Origin: Tubulanus polymorphus
Taxonomy: Eukaryota > Nemertea > Palaeonemertea > Tubulaniformes > Tubulanidae
Length of the DNA stretch: 64,000 nucleotides
Direction of reading: 5' to 3'
Assembly: GCF_964204645.1 (NCBI RefSeq)
Contig: NC_134035.1
Span: forward strand, 6,510,501-6,574,500
Below the pieces are notes generated by a model. That model saw only the letters and a program-made list of their open reading frames with translations, did no database searches and was not told the DNA's origin. Both the position numbers and the translations under genes were made by a program. Each line of letters opens with the position of its first letter. Within the stretch, counting starts at the first letter, position 1. Of the stretch, positions 2,849 through 16,672 are shown one piece after another.

Positions 2849-3827
2849 CCCTACTAACGCCGTACGTGAGTTCCTATAATCTGCAAACAGGCGTGCGTAA
2901 AAGAATAGAGTTTGGGTTAGGTGAGGCTAGGCTATTTGTAAATCAAATTTCATCTAACCTGCAGTTACGTTCTGTGGTAGTCAGTAACCTGTCTGTGGTT
3001 TAGTTTCACAATCGGATATTTTCACAAACCACAGTCAGGAATGGGAAGGTCATTTTTGTATGAAATCTTCGTCAGCCAATTTGACTGACGAGTAATTTGC
3101 CTGGCATTTCATTGTCTCTTAGGCCTAAGATATCCGTCTAATTTTTGTTGTAATCGACGCACAACAGATTCGTAGTTTGTCTGATACCTATAACACCTCA
3201 CCTGACGATCTTAATCCATGTGCAAATCGGCCGTAAAGTGAGAGTAAATTTCCGTCGGGTCAACAGCTGCCATTTTGAAAATTACTGGAGGTGGTGGCAC
3301 CTGTGGACTGAGGCCAGGACAACAGCACAAACTAACGAAGCGAAACGACGAAATTGAAAAAAATTAAGAAATCAACACTTATTCACATTTTTCTTTTACC
3401 AGAATTTATTATTTCATAATTTAATATGGAAAACCTGAAGATTTGAAATATAAGTTGGAAAACCATCAAAAATAAAAATTGTCGTTTCGTCTTGGAAGTT
3501 TTATATAAATCCTTGTAGGTCCCCTTGTCTTATCATCCCACATGTGCAATACAGAGAAATGGCGGCCAATGGCGAAATTGGTGGAGAAATTAATTAATTT
3601 CTCAAAATAATGTTGATTAACCACTCGAAACATACATGAAATTGGATTATTTCGAAAGGTACATGTGTTAGATTGTGAATTAAGCCATTAATTTTGGACT
3701 GAAGTGAATATAAAGTATATTTTTGAAGTGTTACTTTTTTCAACCGTGTTTTGGTCCTTGTCATCCCTAACGTTGGTATAAGCCCATCCGATTATAAAAA
3801 GCTTACCACCAACGATTAGGTAACTAA
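2849..3827. other. Interior of the inverted-repeat element, no gene seen
   Basis: AT-rich and non-coding, with no open frame worth calling on either strand. It opens with a second copy of the word CCGTACGTGAGTTCC, next to the left arm. Confidence 0.4.
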
Positions 3828-3829
3828 CT

Positions 3830-3905
3830 AGTTCTGTGGCACAGTGGGTAACTCACTGGACTTCTACTGGATTTTTTTTTTCGTTTGGTTTCGAATCCCA
3901 ATATT
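3830..3905 (+). ncRNA. tRNA-derived SINE head or tRNA pseudogene
   Basis: GTGGCACAGTGGGTA (3836-3850) resembles a pol III A box, and GGTTTCGAATCCCA (3887-3900) is an excellent B box. Their spacing suits an internal pol III promoter of a tRNA-derived SINE. A T-run in the intervening part and the lack of a clean cloverleaf argue against a working tRNA. It sits just inside the right arm of the inverted-repeat pair. Confidence 0.6.
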
Positions 3906-3925
3906 GCATGTCTGAGCGTCAACGT

Positions 3926-3980
3926 ACTCACATATGGCTAACCTGTAGTAATCGCCGTACAGTCACGTACAGGTAACAAC
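3926..3980 (-). repeat. Right arm of the 1.2-kb inverted-repeat pair
   Basis: Reverse-complement partner of 2793-2848. It shares GTTGTTACCTGTACGTGACT and the neighbouring CACAGGTTA-type words, with small differences. Confidence 0.6.
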
Positions 3981-4176
3981 AGCGTTTTAAGTATTAAGTG
4001 AGTGCGACAAGCCTATACCATGCCTATGTGCTACAAACACAACTTTTCCCCTCTCGTCTGCCCTACAGTGATGTTACTAATAACTGGTGCCATTATAACA
4101 TGGATAGGATTTGGTCAGGACTAGCCTAAAGTCTAATTCAGTCTATGTACTAATTCACTCGATAGGCCTATTTTTA

Positions 4177-4714
4177 GCCCACTTGGGACTTTAGTCCCAG
4201 CGGGCTATTGTGTTCACTTTTCGTCCGTCGTCCATCCGTCCGTCCGTAGACGGAATCCAGTTATTTTGGGAAGTTTTGAAGAGGCTTCAATGTAATGTCT
4301 TGATATTTGGGTTACACATGTATCTACCCTAGACACATCTTCAGCCCAAAAACTGGCCCTGTCAGAATCAAGATGGCCGACTGGCAGCCATTGTTGTTCG
4401 CCAAAATCATGACAGCTCATGACATTATCTATGATTGTGGCAAGTTTTAAGGCCAATAGTTATTCTATGTGGTCACCAGGGGGCGTTGAATAGTAGAATA
4501 ACTTAGTATTTCCTTATTATATTGGTACCTCGGCATATTTTGTTACCATGATCAATTACAAAGTTATGGTTCGTGACATGTTCTATGATTGTGGTGAGTT
4601 TCAAGGTCAATGGGTTTTGAATATGGTCACCAGGGGGCGTTGAATATTGAAATTGTTAGATTGTTGAGCATTCGGAACCACTTCCCAAGTGGGCATGGTG
4701 TCCCTGGACCCCTA
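4177..4714 (+). mobile_element. Dispersed repeat with GCCCACTTGGGA ends
   Basis: The left end carries GCCCACTTGGGA (4177-4188) and the right part carries its exact reverse complement TCCCAAGTGGGC (4683-4694), ending CCCTGGACCCCTAGTT. Inside are a GTCCGTCC-rich stretch (about 4222-4252), the phrase AAGATGGCCG, and two units containing TCACCAGGGGGCGTTGAATA about 155 bp apart. The same family makes the islands at 16673-17556 and 33104-33987, where the same right end meets satellite. It appears to be non-autonomous; I see no coding capacity. Confidence 0.7.
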
Positions 4715-5305
4715 GTTAAAACAAAACAGTGAAGTATTCACACGCAGAAAGGCCAATTGATTTGAGCCATGTGATTAAATTTGGCCAGGCCTTCTCTGAC
4801 CTGCTGATATTAATAGTCAAACCTAGATCCAAAACGTTCATATGGTCACGGCTTGTATACCAGAAATCATTGTAGGTCTGTACATTTTGCTGTTCGTAGG
4901 TTTGGTATACCGATTTCTCCATTCTTGACTGTGTACGGTACAGCTGTACGCATTAGGCCTATACAATTGTTCCAATGGGAATAGGGCCTATTGATTGGGC
5001 TTATTATTTCCTGCTTTAGAATACTGAAATAAGCCTAACGTTCATTCAAATATCCAACATCGGTGAAATTTTGATTACTGTATACATGTACTGTAGGTTT
5101 TCATGTTGTATGAATATTTTGCAGTTCAAATGAGTATGATGCTGATTCCAATGTCAAACGCATGAAGTTAGATGGACAGTCAACACCAAGATATCTCTCT
5201 TCGACCGATGTTGCACCATAGAAGATCTGATTCTTTCAAACCAAGCAAAGTGATTCAACACGATCGACATAACACTGGAATAGGTTTGCAGTAACTAAAT
5301 GGTTC
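4715..5305. other. Intergenic, no gene recognised
   Basis: AT-rich sequence with scattered GGCCTA words. A 68-codon reverse frame (4716-4922) has no identifiable domain and is not called. The interval ends at the target-site duplication of the downstream transposon. Confidence 0.4.
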
Positions 5306-5312
5306 ATTTCAT
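5306..5312 (+). repeat. Target-site duplication, left
   Basis: ATTTCAT directly abuts the left inverted repeat and is repeated exactly at 7470-7476. Confidence 0.9.
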
Positions 5313-5345
5313 CAGGGAAGTGTGATGAGATGGAATACGGACGCT
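5313..5345 (+). repeat. Left terminal inverted repeat, 33 bp
   Basis: Starts CAGGGAAGTGTGATG and ends ACGGACGCT. Identical over 33 bp to the reverse complement of 7437-7469. Confidence 0.95.
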
Positions 5346-5514
5346 ATTGTGCAGCTCTTGTCGAATGTGCGTTGTAATTGCCCTAAAGCCGATAACGGTT
5401 CGTCGGCGAGCGCTTTGTTACGTAACGCGCCGATAAGCGATAACCAGCGAGATCGGGAATCTCCGTAATAATTCAGTTGTTTCCGAATATCGGTTTTTCA
5501 TCCCACAATAAACT

Positions 5515-5523
5515 TATATAAAA
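5515..5523 (+). promoter_or_regulatory. TATA-like box inside the transposon
   Basis: TATATAAAA lies about 410 bp upstream of the ATG of the three-exon candidate gene, on the same strand. It is a good TATA match, but no start site can be fixed from sequence alone, and the interval is AT-rich. Confidence 0.25.
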
Positions 5524-5930
5524 ATTCCTCTGTAAACTGGTTAAACTCAACACCTGATTTCCCCTCATCAATTTTAGTCGATCAACTTGTATTCACAATT
5601 GTCTTAAATTTAAGTGCCCCCTAGTTTGTCTCTTAACTGCTTCTCTTTAATCTGTTTTAGCGTGTAACTGTTTCTACGTTAATTTTCCTTTAGTTAGTAT
5701 CATCTCTGATTACTTGAATTAGTCTCTTTGTCTCTGGATTGTATATATCTCTCATAATTTCTGTATTATTCATTATTTCTGAAGATGACTATTAGGACAT
5801 AGACGAAACGTTGAATAAACTACTAACATTTTTGGACTTTTTCGTTATCATTGTGGGATTCTCTCTACATCGCTTCAGACGGATATAGTGTTTTATCAAT
5901 CGTGATATCGGTTCTTTCCACTGTATTAAA

Positions 5931-6546
5931 ATGGCAACGGTTGTCAACGAAATTATAAATGATGACGATTTTGACGATCTATTCTTTGATAGTGACGAAT
6001 TGGTTCAGATCGATACGGAAATATTACGGGAATCCTCTGGATCAGGATCAACTAATTCGGCCGATTCTAGTGAGTGTTATTCCTTTTGAATCAATGAAAT
6101 ATCGGAATAGTTTCCACCTAATTGCAGGCACTTTATTCTTTCCTTTTCTTTTTCATATAGGTACTTCTCAGGCTCAGCTGACCAGAGACTGCGATCTGAA
6201 CACGAGAAAACACACATACAGGTATTTTTTAAAATTTATTTTTATAATCAATACAATCCTTTTAGGTTATAAAATAATAAACGAATACAGAAAATAATAT
6301 ATAAACATAATATAAAAAATCCAGATAAGTACATGTTAAAATAATAATCATTATTATTATCTTCGCAGGAACACTATATATTTGGAAAAGGCTATGACTG
6401 AAGTGATTAACCATCGAGTATTTAAATTCAGTTCAAATGGAATGGCAGCAGTACATTATGGAAAATCGATCAATAAAATTTTGACTACAAATACGTCGCC
6501 GTCCAGACTTGGAATTGACCAGTGGTTTACATGTCCATTGTTTTAA
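5931..6546 (+). CDS. Transposon-borne three-exon gene, unknown acidic protein
   Basis: Proposed join: 5931-6069, 6161-6221, 6369-6546, giving 125 codons plus TAA. Exon 1 starts at an ATG in a good context (AAAATGG) and ends at a GTGAGT donor. Exon 2 is bounded by TTTTTCATATAG and a CAG/GTATTT donor. Exon 3 follows TCTTCGCAG. The phases (1, then 2) agree at both junctions and the frame stays open, which would be unlikely by chance. The N-terminal 30 residues are strongly acidic (NDDDFDDLFFDSDEL), followed by a Ser-rich stretch (SSGSGSTNSADSS); the C-terminal half is basic to neutral and ends WFTCPLF. I recognise no family. An acidic start could suit an activation or protein-contact segment, but that is a guess. 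The last exon overlaps the reverse zinc-finger frame by 114 bp. Confidence 0.5.
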
Positions 6547-6765
6547 TTTGATAGTCACAGGGACAGTTTTTTTAACGTTTTTGTTCTTACGCCATTTTTG
6601 TAATTTGACACGACACATATTACAGATATATATCGGGTACTGTTCAGTATCATCATCAAAATCAATGTTGAACAACTCCTTCACATGGCTTTTGAAATTA
6701 TTTTTATCGATAGGACGACGATCCGGAGGTTTCGCATTTTTTCCACACAATCGACAAACATCCAT
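6433..6765 (-). CDS. C2-C2 zinc-finger (ZAD-like) exon in the transposon
   Basis: Translation from the ATG at 6765 (reverse strand) gives 110 residues. Cysteines at 4 and 7 (VCRLCG) and at 48 and 51 (YICNMC) make a C-x2-C ... C-x2-C pattern about 40 residues apart. An acidic stretch (FDDDTEQ) precedes the second pair and a basic tail (LQKWRKNKN) follows it. This spacing and the CRLCG/ICxxC style resemble zinc-finger-associated (ZAD-like) and other transposase-type N-terminal zinc domains, which bind DNA or dimerise. A splice acceptor (CTTTTCTTGTTTTTAG on the reverse strand) sits just before the ATG, suggesting a 5' non-coding exon nearer the right end of the element. A donor-like GTAAAC near 6528 could end the exon early; otherwise the frame runs to the stop at 6433. 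Confidence 0.55.
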   Translation of the reverse strand: MDVCRLCGKNAKPPDRRPIDKNNFKSHVKELFNIDFDDDTEQYPIYICNMCRVKLQKWRKNKNVKKTVPVTIKLKQWTCKPLVNSKSGRRRICSQNFIDRFSIMYCCHSI

Positions 6766-7436
6766 GACTAAAAACAAGAAAAGGTTAATTAAATGAGATT
6801 GCTGATGCTATTTAGGCAACTTGGTTTATATGGGGGACAATAATTTGTAGGCCTAATGTAAGCGTTATTAAGTAACATTATTATGTAGTAAATACACATT
6901 TTAAAGATCATACTTCGTGTATATGTTTGTGTCGTAACATAGCAACATGACGTCAGAAACGAAAGCTGCGCGAGTCTGGGCCGAAATATTTGACATCTTC
7001 AAGGCCCAAATAACGCTAAACCCGGAATCGGAACGAACTGGCAAAAACATATGTTTAACACATAAAAACAGACTTTAATCACAATATAAATACTTAATGT
7101 TCCGATACCGGGTTTCGGAGATATAGAAGAATAAAAATACATACCTTTTTGGACAAATTTTACGAGAAATTGTTGAATTTCAACCGATTTTCTAAAGAAA
7201 AATATGTGTATACAGAGCCACTTCCACGTTGTTCAATGAGCTGCAGTGCGCATGCGTAGTATCGATCGCAGAACATTTATCGGGCTAAAACTATTGCGGG
7301 TTGTTCTGCGACCGAATCAAAGTTGATGTTGACTGGTGTTCAGCTGGTAACACACACTCGATAAGCGTAGCTTACTGCTGTTGCGGTAACCTTTGATGTA
7401 CGGGCTGAATTGAATAGCCTACATCCGGCAATTAAA

Positions 7437-7469
7437 AGCGTCCGTATTCCATCTCATCACACTTCCCTG
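7437..7469 (-). repeat. Right terminal inverted repeat, 33 bp
   Basis: Exact inverted partner of 5313-5345, ending ACACTTCCCTG against the ATTTCAT duplication. Confidence 0.95.
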
Positions 7470-7476
7470 ATTTCAT
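7470..7476 (+). repeat. Target-site duplication, right
   Basis: ATTTCAT, identical to 5306-5312 and directly adjoining the right inverted repeat. Confidence 0.9.
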
Positions 7477-9561: not shown

Positions 9562-12500
9562 TGACAATTCAATATTTTGGTTTTATCGCCCGCGACAATT
9601 CATTATTTTGGTTTTATCGTCCGCGACAATTCATTTTTTTGGTTTTATCGCCTGCGACAATTCATTAGTTTGGTTTTGTTGCCCGCGTCAATTCATAATT
9701 TTGGTTTTATCGTCCGCGACAATTCATTTTTTTGGTTTTATCGCCTGCGACAATTTATTATTTTGGTTTTATCGCCCGCGACAATTCATTAGTTTGGTTT
9801 TGTCGCCCGCGACAATTGAATATTTTGGTTTTGTTGCCCGCAACAATTCAAGATTTTGGTTTTTCTGCCGCGACAATTCATTTTTTGGATTTGTCGCCCG
9901 CGACAATTCAGTATTTTGGTTTTATCGCCCGCGACAATTCAGTATTTTGGTTTTATCGCCCGCGACAATTCATTATTTTGGTTTTATCGCCCGCGACAAT
10001 TCATTAATTTGGTTTTGTCACCCGCGACAAAACAATATTTTGGTTTTATCGCCCGCGACAATTCATTATTTTGGTTTTATCGCCCGGAACAATTCATTAT
10101 TTTGGTTTTGTCGCACGCGACAATGGCGACAATTCAAGATTTTGGTTTTATCGCCCGCGACAATTCATTTTTTGGATTTGGCGCCTACGACAATTCAATA
10201 TTTTGGTTTTATCGCCGGCGACAATTTTTTTTCTCTTTTTGTCGCGGTTTTATCGCCCGCGACGCTTCAATATTTTGGTTTTATCGTCCGCGACAATTCA
10301 TTTTTTTTGTTTTATCGCCTGCGACAATTTATTATTTTGGTTTTATCGCCCGCGACAATTCATTATTTTGGTTTTATCGCCCGCGACAATTCATTAATTT
10401 GGTTTTGTCACCCGCGACAAAACAATATTTTGGTTTTATCGCCCGCGACAATTCATTATTTTGGTTTTATCGCCCGGTACAATTCATTATTTTGGTTTTA
10501 TCGCCGGCGACAATTTTTTTTCTCTTTTTGTCGCGGTTTTATCGCCCGCGACGCTTCAATATTTTGGTTTTATCGCCCGCGACAATTCAGTATTTTGGTT
10601 TTATCGCCCGCGACAATTCAGTATTTTGGTTTTATCGCCCGCGACAATTCATTATTTTGGTTTTATCGCCCGCGACAATTCATTAATTTGGTTTTGTCAC
10701 CCGCGACAAAACAATATTTTGGTTTTATCGCCCGCGACAATTCATTATTTTGGTTTTATCGCCCGGAACAATTCATTATTTTGGTTTTGTCGCACGCGAC
10801 AATGGCGACAATTCAAGATTTTGGTTTAATCGCCCGCGACAATTCATTTTTTGGATTTGGCGCCTACGACAATTCAATATTTTGGTTTTATCGCCGGCGA
10901 CAATTTTTTTTCTCTTTTTGTCGCGGTTTTATCGCCCGCGACGCTTCAATATTTTGGTTTTATCGCCCGCGACAATTCATTATTTTGGCTTTATCGCCCG
11001 CGACCATTCATTAGTTTGGTTTTGTCGCCCGCGACAATTGAATATTTTGGTTTTGTCGCCCGCGACAATTGAATATTTTGGTTTTGTCGCCCGCGACAAT
11101 TCATGATTTTGGTTTTATCGTCCGCGACAATTCATTTTTTTGGTTTTATCACCTGCGACAATTTATTATTTTGGTTTTATCGCCCGCGACAATTCATTAG
11201 TTTGGTTTTGTTGCCCGCGTCAATTCATAATTTTGGTTTTCTCGTCCGCGACAATTCATTTTTTTGGTTTTATCGCCTGCGACAATTTATTATTTTGGTT
11301 TTATCGCCCGCGACAATTCATTAGTTTGGTTTTGTTGCCCGCGTCAATTCATAATTTTGGTTTTATCGTCCGCGACAATTCATTTTTTTGGTTTTATCGC
11401 CTGCGACAATTTATTATTTTGGTTTTATCGCCCGCGACAATTCATTAGTTTGGTTTTGTCGCCCGCGACAATTGAATATTTTGGTTTTGTTGCCCGCAAC
11501 AATTCAAGATTTTGGTTTTTCTGCCGCGACAATTCAGTATTTTGGTTTTATCGCCCGCGACAATTCAGTATTTTGGTTTTATCGCCCGCGACAATTCATT
11601 ATTTTGGTTTTATCGCCCGCGACAATTCATTAATTTGGTTTTGTCACCCGCGACAAAACAATATTTTGGTTTTATCGCCCGCGACAATTCATTATTTTGG
11701 TTTTATCGCCCGGAAAAATTCATTATTTTGGTTTTGTCGCACGCGACAATGGCGACAATTCAAGATTTTGGTTTTATCGCCCGCGACAATTCATTTTTTG
11801 GATTTGGCGCCTACGACAATTCAATATTTTGGTTTTATCGCCGGCGACAATTTTTTTTCTCTTTTTGTCGCGGTTTTATCGCCCGCGACGCTTCAATATT
11901 TTGGTTTTATCGTCCGCGACAATTCATTTTTTTGGTTTTATCGCCTGCGACAATTTATTATTTTGGTTTTATCGCCCGCGACAATTCATTAGTTTGGTTT
12001 TGTCGCCCGCGACAATTGAATATTTTGGTTTTGTTGCCCGCAACAATTCAGTATTTTGGTTTTATCGCCCGCGACAATTCAGTATTTTGGTTTTATCGCC
12101 CGCGACAATTCATTATTTTGGTTTTATCGCCCGCGACAATTCATTAATTTGGTTTTGTCACCCGCGACAAAACAATATTTTGGTTTTATCGCCCGCGACA
12201 ATTCAGTATTTTGGTTTTATCGCCCGCGACAATTCATTATTTTGGTTTTATCGCCCGCGACAATTCATTAATTTGGTTTTGTCACCCGCGACAAAACAAT
12301 ATTTTGGTTTTGTCGCCCACGACAATTCAATATTTTGGTTTTATCGCCCGCGACAATTCATTATTTTGGTTTTATCGCCCGCGACAATTCATTATTTTGG
12401 TTTTGTCGCACAACACAATGGCGACAATTCAAGATTTTGGTTTTATCGCCCGCGACAATTCATTTTTGGATTTTCCGCCCACGACAATTCAATTTTTTGG

Positions 12501-12967
12501 TTTTATCGCCCACGACAATTCATTATTTTGGTTTTATCGCCCGCGACAATTCATTATTTTGGTTTTATCGCCCAGAACAATTCATTATTTTGGTTTTGTT
12601 GCACGCGACAATGGCGACAATTCAAGATTTTGGTTTTATCGCCCGCGACAATTCATTTTTTTTGGATTTGGCGCCTACGACAATTCAATATTTTGGTTTT
12701 ATCGCCCGCGACAATTCATTATTTTGGTTTTATCGCCCGCGACAATTTTTTTCTCTTTTTGTCGCGGTTTTATCGCCCGCGACACTTCAATATTTTGGTT
12801 TTATCGCCCGCGACAATTCATTATTTTGGCTTTATCGCCCGCGACAATTCAATATTTTGGTTTTATCGCCAGCGACAATTGATTATTTTGGTTTTATCGC
12901 CCGCGACAATTGATTATTTTGGTTTTATCGCCCGCGACAATTAATTTTTTTGGTTTTGTCGCCCACA
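9562..12967 (+). repeat. 31-bp satellite, array 1 (3.4 kb)
   Basis: About 110 head-to-tail monomers, canonical ATTTTGGTTTTATCGC plus CCGCGACAATTCATT. Array 1 has private variants not seen in the big array: a T-rich monomer with TTTTCTCTTTTTGTCGCGG (near 10,225, 10,515, 10,915, 11,855 and 12,740), an ACAATGGCGACAATTC dimer join, and a TTTGGCGCCTACGAC monomer. These recur together, so array 1 has its own higher-order units. Its forward frames are open for up to about 500 codons only because the monomer lacks stops in all three frames. Confidence 0.98.
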
Positions 12968-15834: not shown

Positions 15835-15881
15835 CGACAAAACTAAAATGACGCGAGAAAACAATGATTTTGATTTTGTCG
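15835..15881. repeat. Inverted satellite remnant at the array edge
   Basis: CGACAAAACTAAAAT (15835-15849) is a reverse-strand piece of the monomer, and ATTTTGATTTTGTCG (15867-15881) is the forward-strand piece that opens array 2. The two arms pair with two mismatches around a 17-base loop. This is the only reverse-oriented monomer piece I found. Confidence 0.65.
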
Positions 15882-16672
15882 CCCGCGACAATTCATTATT
15901 TTGGTTTTATCGCTTGCGACAATTCATTATTTTGGTTTTGTCGCCCGCGAAAATTCAATATTTTGGTTTTATCGCCCACGACAATTCACTACTTTGGTTT
16001 TATCGCCAGCGACAATTGATTATTTTCGTTTTGTCGCCCGCGACAATTTTTTTTTTGGTTTTGTCCCCCGCGACAATTCAATATTTTGGTTTTATCGCCT
16101 GCGACAATTCAATATTTTGGTTTTATCGCCCGCGATAATTCATTATTTTGGTTTTGTCGCCCGAGACAATTCATTATTTTGGTTTTGTCGCCCGCGACAA
16201 TTCATTATTTTGGTTTTGTTGCCCGCGACAATTCACCATTTTGGTTTTGTCACCCGCGACAATTCATTATTTTGGTTTTATCGCCTGCGACAATTCATTA
16301 CTTTGGTTTTATCTCCAGCGACAATTCATTATTTTGGTTTTGTCGCCCCAACAATTCTTTTTTTGGTTTTGTCGCCGGCGACAATTCATTAGTCTGGTTT
16401 TGTCGCCCGCGACAATTCAATTCTTTGGTTTTGTCGCCCGCGACAATTCAATATTTTGGTTTTTTCGCCTGCGACATTTCATTATTTTGGTTTTATCGCC
16501 CGCGATAATTCATTATTTTGGTTTTGTCCCGCGACAATTCATTATTTTGGTTTTGTCGCCCGAGACAATTCATCATTTTGGTTTTATCGCCCGCGACAAA
16601 ATCATTATTTTGGTTTTGTCGCCCGCGACAATTAACCATTTTAGTTTTGTCGCCTGGACAATTCACCATTTT
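15867..16672 (+). repeat. 31-bp satellite, array 2 segment 1
   Basis: Head-to-tail monomers in the same orientation as array 1, mixing TTTTATCGCC and TTTTGTCGCC types. From about 15,970 the sequence is repeated 16,431 bp downstream (about 32,401). It ends where a non-satellite island starts at CGATCTGACTC. Confidence 0.97.

Follow-up and report, generated by a model that had tools for sequence, protein, structure and literature searches.

The transposase of the Drosophila P element (structures 6p5a and 6pe2; PMC7776569) is one protein with an N-terminal THAP domain, a helix-turn-helix (HTH), an RNase H core with DDE acids, a GTP-binding insertion and a C-terminal domain (CTD) that is held in cis behind a disordered linker. 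Its reaction is GTP-dependent and involves 17-nt staggered cuts (PMC7776569); the element has terminal inverted repeats (TIRs) of about 31 bp and leaves target site duplications (TSDs) of 8 bp. Galileo, another member of the P superfamily in Drosophila, also has a THAP domain, but differs by very long TIRs and by a 7-bp TSD at a palindromic target, GTANTAC; a second gene is not mentioned in the consulted text of PMC4168063. For the P-like transposase of THAP9 and zebrafish Pdre2, again with THAP, multiple internally deleted copies, 13-bp TIRs and an 8-bp TSD are described (PMC10983969). Two genes per transposon, together with zinc-binding domains on the transposase, are found in RAG1-RAG2 and TransibVDJ, where the genes are arranged head-to-head, the core is an unrelated Transib core and the partner is a Kelch-PHD protein that includes no piece of the transposase (PMC4411706). 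Here we compare with these systems a transposable element of about 2.2 kb at positions 5313-7469 of a 64,000-nt stretch of DNA from Tubulanus polymorphus (GCF_964204645.1, contig NC_134035.1, 6,510,501-6,574,500, forward strand). The whole stretch is called the window below, and positions refer to it unless a locus is named.

According to our analysis, the element is very likely a non-autonomous, internally deleted member of the P superfamily of cut-and-paste transposons, whose longer relatives appear to divide their transposase between two convergent genes with products that would assemble in trans. We call these the catalytic gene and the second gene, and have assigned the letters A-F to the families, that of the window being family A. 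With the Drosophila P element the families share the RNase H core with DDE acids, a putative HTH, a GTP-binding-type insertion (weak in family A, clear in family D), a CTD recognized by profile comparison, and TIRs; they differ in having two convergent genes, a zf-AD instead of a THAP domain and a 7-bp TSD. Galileo has the superfamily, the TSD length and a palindromic target (approximately GTTNAAC here) in common with them, THAP9 and Pdre2 the P-like transposase and the deleted copies, and RAG1-RAG2 the two genes and the zinc-binding domains. The PHD finger of the RAG partner has a weak counterpart in family C only, and the gene order here is tail to tail. The original prediction had considered a family with an unfamiliar transposase. 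The core itself turned out to be of a known kind, as we assign the transposon to the P superfamily by it, whereas no earlier description was found of the domain layout, zf-AD in place of THAP and a CTD apparently located on a second convergent gene: neither a P element with zf-AD nor a split P transposase was recognized in the open-access literature searched, a scope without Repbase Reports and most subscription journals.

The window element and its copies

The element is bounded by perfect 33-bp TIRs (left, 5313-5345, plus strand; right, 7437-7469, minus strand, the inverted match to the left end), with arms that reach 38 bp at 97%, and by the direct repeat ATTTCAT on both sides (5306-5312 and 7470-7476), just as had been described from the sequence alone. 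The original prediction had suggested a genome search with the 33-bp end, naming a lack of further copies, or of duplications at them, as the outcome that would speak against it. In the genome (267.8 Mb, 77 contigs), the end was matched with up to 3 mismatches 58 times in forward and 58 times in reverse orientation (only part of these 116 matches being listed individually), compared with 0 + 0 for a reversed-pattern control. A search with the whole element yielded at least 23 full-length copies, including that of the window, at 96-100% identity; the number is a minimum, as scoring covered 40 of the 1258 first-look candidates.

Both flanks were then compared for 38 two-ended copies, which represent best matches and selected end pairs and not a random sample. 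A perfect 7-bp duplication was present in 36 of the 38 and an 8-bp duplication in none, so that a length of 7 bp characterizes the family as a whole and did not arise by chance at the window insertion. This length had been considered unusual for an element with such ends; for the P superfamily it is not odd, as Galileo also duplicates 7 bp (PMC4168063). The target sites of the 36 copies with a perfect TSD, read in element orientation with strands unpooled, form a near-palindrome, TTR-GTTNAAC-YAA, in which the third base ahead of the duplicated 7 bp is T and the third base behind them is A, each at a frequency of 0.89. An earlier count had pooled each site with its reverse complement, by which symmetry is built in, and the unpooled count is used instead.

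Divergence and codon tests covered 33 of the 38 copies and excluded the three long ones and the two of 181 bp. The 26 copies of the size class of the window element diverge from their column consensus by 0.73% on average, indicating a recent spread and agreeing with the young insertion that had been proposed. A second deletion class of 2221 bp had the 7-bp duplication in 7/7 copies examined. In the two 181-bp copies (L012 and L013), 148 bp from one side are all that remains besides the ends; each has its own 7-bp duplication (2/2), and they are very small mobile derivatives. The list of ends also contains two wider-spaced pairs, about 22 and 24 kb apart (on C12 and C4), which lie outside the analysed copies.

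Three long copies carry identical ends, L009 with 5511 bp and L010 and L011 with 5910 bp each; they are alike at 99.7-99.8% over shared positions, and L009 and L011 are flanked by 7-bp duplications. These are the longer, transposase-bearing relatives for which the search with the 33-bp end had been suggested. Compared with them, the window copy aligns in pieces of 92-99% identity, the inner ends of which meet at element position 1219 (window position 6531), where about 3.7 kb of the 5.9-kb relative are gone. The window copy itself stems from a related variant and from none of the three.

On the minus strand, the window open reading frame (ORF) 6433-6807 (124 amino acids; 6433-6765 for the first ORF from the ATG at 6765) corresponds to the start of a 627-residue frame in the long copies. 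This truncated catalytic gene has kept its C2-C2 domain, identified as Pfam zf-AD (residues 17-74 of the frame, positions 6586-6759; 31.5 bits versus a cut-off of 28; E = 2.1e-7), whereas the HTH and the RNase H core are missing. The plus-strand gene, whose product has an acidic N-terminus, comprises three predicted exons (GT..AG borders): exon 1 (5931-6069) has the start codon and frame seen in L009 and L011, exon 2 (6161-6221) is delimited by predicted AG/GT borders, and exon 3 (6369-6546) ends early because the part coding for the P-type CTD is missing. In the long copies, the gene that begins in this way has a 345-residue frame as its last exon. The original prediction had recognized the zinc-finger exon, the acidic plus-strand protein (the splicing of which is a prediction) and, correctly for the window copy, the absence of a visible transposase core.

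From these alignments, the window copy is best understood as an internal-deletion derivative that is non-autonomous, one of the options raised before, and its two genes as stumps of two convergent parent genes. With neither a core nor a CTD of its own, it could only be moved in trans. The accompanying idea that accessory genes had been kept was not borne out for this copy, since the ORFs are truncated ends of the parent genes and, in the 26 short copies, changes occur at 0.88 (zf-AD frame) and 1.25 (second-gene stump) of the neutral expectation, ratios near neutral that give no sign of the stumps being kept for function. For the 2221-bp copies (n = 7), the number of changes (1 and 11) was too small for a codon ratio.

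Catalytic gene and second gene

The 627-residue frame of L010 matches Pfam TNP-like_RNaseH_N over the cut-off (2.5e-26); its matches to the P-element HTH (Tnp_P_element, 6.2e-4) and to zf-AD (5.8e-6) stay below the curated cut-offs. The later exons of the gene weakly match RNaseH_C (1.7e-4) and the GTP-binding insertion (GBD, 0.03), again below cut-off. In family B, Tnp_P_element was found at 0.012, below cut-off, and family D gave RNaseH_N (2.4e-23) and GBD (5.1e-22), both over cut-off. The sole structure in the PDB matched by the 627-residue frame at E <= 1 is chain A of the P transposase 6p5a (1.9e-7). The ORFs contain the catalytic-acid motifs FDEM, SDGATPN and DPLE, which by eye were judged equivalent to D230, D303 and E531. 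On the RNase H and structure matches the catalytic core is assigned to the P superfamily.

The place of THAP at the front of the protein is taken by zf-AD in families A, B and C, with a match over cut-off in the window ORF and below cut-off in the others. This domain is known from the ZAD zinc-finger proteins of flies (PMC10547256). A genome search for zf-AD listed 36 matches, 35 of them over cut-off, all of which lie in family-A copies by coordinates; no zf-AD of family B or C is among the matches listed. Among the scanned proteins, THAP was seen only in L029 (4.2e-5), a THAP-type P gene with one full-length occurrence (RNaseH_N, 1.6e-33) that served as the one-piece comparison. Of the 10 loci of families A-C in which QDPLE was found, 9 have a catalytic frame that terminates 66-88 residues from this motif; the exception, L019, departs from the shared sequence after QDPLEEHFSK and stops at 34. 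In A and B the frame ends in a run of basic residues. L029 continues for at least 135 residues beyond the same motif.

Downstream of the catalytic core and on the opposite strand, a profile search detected a convergent second gene in 15 of 20 fetched loci with the core, a biased fraction because ten of these loci (L019-L028) had been fetched for having both genes close. In all 15 (L009-L011, L019-L028, L053 and L055) the two genes lie tail to tail; by the same search, no second gene was seen at L029, L031 (fetched too short), L052, L054 and L056. The ends of family B are CAGGGAGGTGGG, those of family C CTTGGAGTAATC and those of family D CATGGACTC, and ends with a 7-bp duplication were found at five loci of these three families. 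A search for ends and TSDs at L052-L056, L020, L021, L026-L029 and L031 found none.

The likeness of second proteins from different families is 17-50%. They share a core that opens with a YxAGY motif and continues with NRGGL and then a segment containing IR and a basic tail. Their N-termini are acidic in family A, carry a PHD-like finger in family C (below the Pfam cut-off, with 0.0013 for L026 and 0.018 for L024) and a C2H2 finger in family D (2e-6, over cut-off). Between families, silent differences are saturated or nearly so and replacement differences amount to about 0.45 to 1.13 per site, which is consistent with a second-gene coding sequence kept under selection.

The relationship of this protein to the P transposase was approached by profile comparison. 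A trimmed profile of the core of families A-F, run against 177,635 distinct PDB sequences, had one match at E <= 10, namely 6p5a chain B (6.6e-5), in two collinear stretches, MEYIAGYVIKKL and GGLIKPSEKF... Chain B is the CTD of the Drosophila P transposase and bears the same molecule name as chain A. When the A-F profile was aligned by hhalign with a two-sequence CTD profile (chain B and L029), the score was 28.7, reached by none of 300 column shuffles (maximum 21.9) and none of 32 real-protein decoys (maximum 16.0); leaving out one sequence at a time gave 21.9-29.3. Families A-E, that is without F, scored 31.0 against a longer stretch of chain B (E 2e-4; 0/300 shuffles, maximum 19.4), and the A-E profile finds F independently (1.6e-6 among 2645 ORFs). 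Furthermore, the P-element C-terminal family of Pfam is the sole family listed for the second proteins of D (0.045) and F (0.15), both below cut-off. Profile comparison thereby identifies a putative P-type CTD, separate and convergent, on the second gene, where it forms the C-terminal end of the product, an identification that is weaker without family F.

Competing explanations and a possible mechanism

We consider it probable that the families found here, at least six, form a branch of the P superfamily with a two-gene split transposase, consisting of a catalytic subunit led by zf-AD and a separate CTD subunit to which, depending on the family, a PHD-like finger, a C2H2 finger or an acidic tail has been added. 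The result would be a two-subunit design like that of RAG1/RAG2, reached independently and with the transposase itself cut in two, in which the finger of the partner perhaps chooses chromatin targets.

Several observations weigh against a split transposase of this kind. An open catalytic gene and an open second gene do not occur together in any of the three long family-A copies: in L009 the 627-residue frame and exon 4 are open and the second gene is interrupted, in L011 the second gene is open where checked and the catalytic frame is broken, and in L010 both genes are hit by disruptions. L010 and L042 have good ends and no target duplication. In family D (L025 and L055) the catalytic frame departs from the shared sequence soon after DPLE and is disrupted, and in the region upstream no zf-AD or THAP exon was recognized by eye. 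For families E and F no ends were found, and the choice of loci that biases the count of second genes belongs on the same side. As for the CTD, family F was first noticed through its CTD likeness. Without it, the hhalign score against the two-sequence CTD profile is no longer 28.7 but 21.9, equal to the shuffle maximum, and hmmsearch with the A-E profile has 0 matches in the PDB at E <= 10, meaning that the PDB match depends on F. An untrimmed second-protein profile (A1) retrieved nothing relevant from the PDB, four of six scanned second-protein sequences had no match to the Pfam P-element C-terminal family, and the C-terminal piece of L029 alone does not stand out (14.2 versus a shuffle maximum of 20.1). 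In per-sequence hmmsearch, one shuffle beats the real Drosophila CTD and several beat that of L029. PF12596 gave 0 candidates across the genome, a result that is uninformative because the controls gave none either, and that we list here for completeness. Regarding L010 and L042, recombination between copies is one possible cause of the loss of the TSD.

The short copies might, alternatively, act in the manner of KP, the repressor derived from an internally deleted P element in Drosophila: a truncated zf-AD protein would poison the dimers of the full transposase and be kept for that. In line with this, 28 of 48 short-copy rows show no stop in the zf-AD frame, and the first 66 codons of this frame contain no single-base change to a stop in the 26 short copies. 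In the other 20 of the 48 rows, however, stops lie inside the match, the change ratios given above are near neutral for the zf-AD frame as well as for the second-gene stump, and L012 and L013 share only the ends and the 148 bp of one flank region, all of which makes retention for repression unlikely. A different explanation takes the element as an ordinary deletion derivative of the P superfamily and its second gene as an unrelated accessory, a regulator or targeting factor, with a likeness to the CTD that arose by chance or from shared helical composition. Eukaryotic transposons with two genes, one of them an accessory gene, are known (Harbinger, MuDR, RAG); single second proteins lack a significant Pfam or PDB match, and families A-E alone match nothing in the PDB by hmmsearch. 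A chance likeness, however, would have to account for a sole PDB match of the A-F profile that falls on the CTD of the very same transposase with two collinear motifs, for an hhalign comparison that without F still stands clear of all shuffles, for catalytic frames that in A-C mostly end about where the CTD should begin, and for the P-element C-terminal family being, if weakly, the sole Pfam family for two members. We regard an unrelated accessory as distinctly unlikely.

CAGGG termini are common in hAT elements, which have an 8-bp TSD, and the element could in principle belong to hAT or another CAGGG-ended superfamily and show an atypical duplication length. The TNP-like RNase H core of the long copies with its match to the P transposase structure and the 7-bp duplications, in the absence of any 8-bp one, leave practically no room for this. 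Membership in hAT was rejected on the same grounds, there being no hAT family among the Pfam families listed, and membership in RAG/Transib on account of the P-type core and the 7-bp TSD, Transib having a Transib-type core and a 5-bp TSD. Galileo was rejected by TIRs of only 33-38 bp as opposed to very long ones, and a canonical P element by the lack of THAP, a TSD of 7 instead of 8 bp and the apparent presence of two genes.

If the transposase is split as proposed, zf-AD may dimerize and/or bind the transposon ends, with pairing through zf-AD or a coiled part. Cleavage and joining would fall to the RNase H of the catalytic protein. The CTD, made as a protein of its own, would grip transposon and target DNA in trans, a task performed in Drosophila by the CTD that follows the disordered linker. 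Short copies, with no core and no CTD, would be moved by the proteins of full-length copies and would leave 7-bp duplications at targets like TTR-GTTNAAC-YAA; that the N-terminal fingers of the partner steer insertion is a guess. Such a system would represent a eukaryotic cut-and-paste transposase distributed over two genes, with the break close to the position of the disordered linker in the Drosophila structure (PMC7776569). The role of the CTD in trans would become testable, with the short copies as ready-made donors, and an independent comparison would be available for the origin of two-subunit recombinases such as RAG1/RAG2. In addition, the zf-AD domain would be tied to a transposase.

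Further loci and neighbouring sequence

Apart from the copies analysed above, a 3.1-kb family-A copy with one diverged end was found at L030:2956-6066. It has a 7-bp duplication (GTTATGT) and a partial second gene, but no catalytic match; as 4 of 20 positions are mismatched at its left end, it was kept out of the 38 copies by the 3-mismatch rule. The N-terminal zinc domain of family B at L019:5944-6375 (minus strand) matches, both below cut-off, the RAG1 importin-binding family of Pfam (0.004) and zf-AD (1e-5). In the family-C copy at L026, an ORF cluster (5424-7114, minus strand) resembles reverse transcriptase, based on a motif recognized by eye, and is probably a nested retrotransposon.

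The P-like locus L052 (C12, 11.35 Mb) has opposite-strand ORFs downstream of its catalytic exons (minus strand, 4575-5339 and 3693-4067), one of them cysteine-rich. At E <= 0.01 the CTD profile does not match these ORFs, and the locus may represent a further two-gene layout with a different partner. At G000:C2:12847179-12847718, C2:13929187-13929726 and C4:10890899-10891333, the second protein has relatives that are not accompanied by a catalytic gene among the matches listed, in searches of which one scored 70 of 129 candidates; these lone relatives, two on C2 and one on C4, could be decayed copies or genes adopted by the host. Relatives sought in viral contigs and genome contigs were not confirmed in any case.

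For the zf-AD ORF of the window, single-sequence AlphaFold returned a mean pLDDT of 43.9, and the PDB contained 0 matches to it; an Rfam scan of the window likewise gave 0 matches. Most of the window (17556-63999) is occupied by a 46-kb satellite array with a 31-bp unit, as detected by Tandem Repeats Finder, and shorter arrays with a similar 31-bp unit are present at 9563-12964 and 15867-16672.

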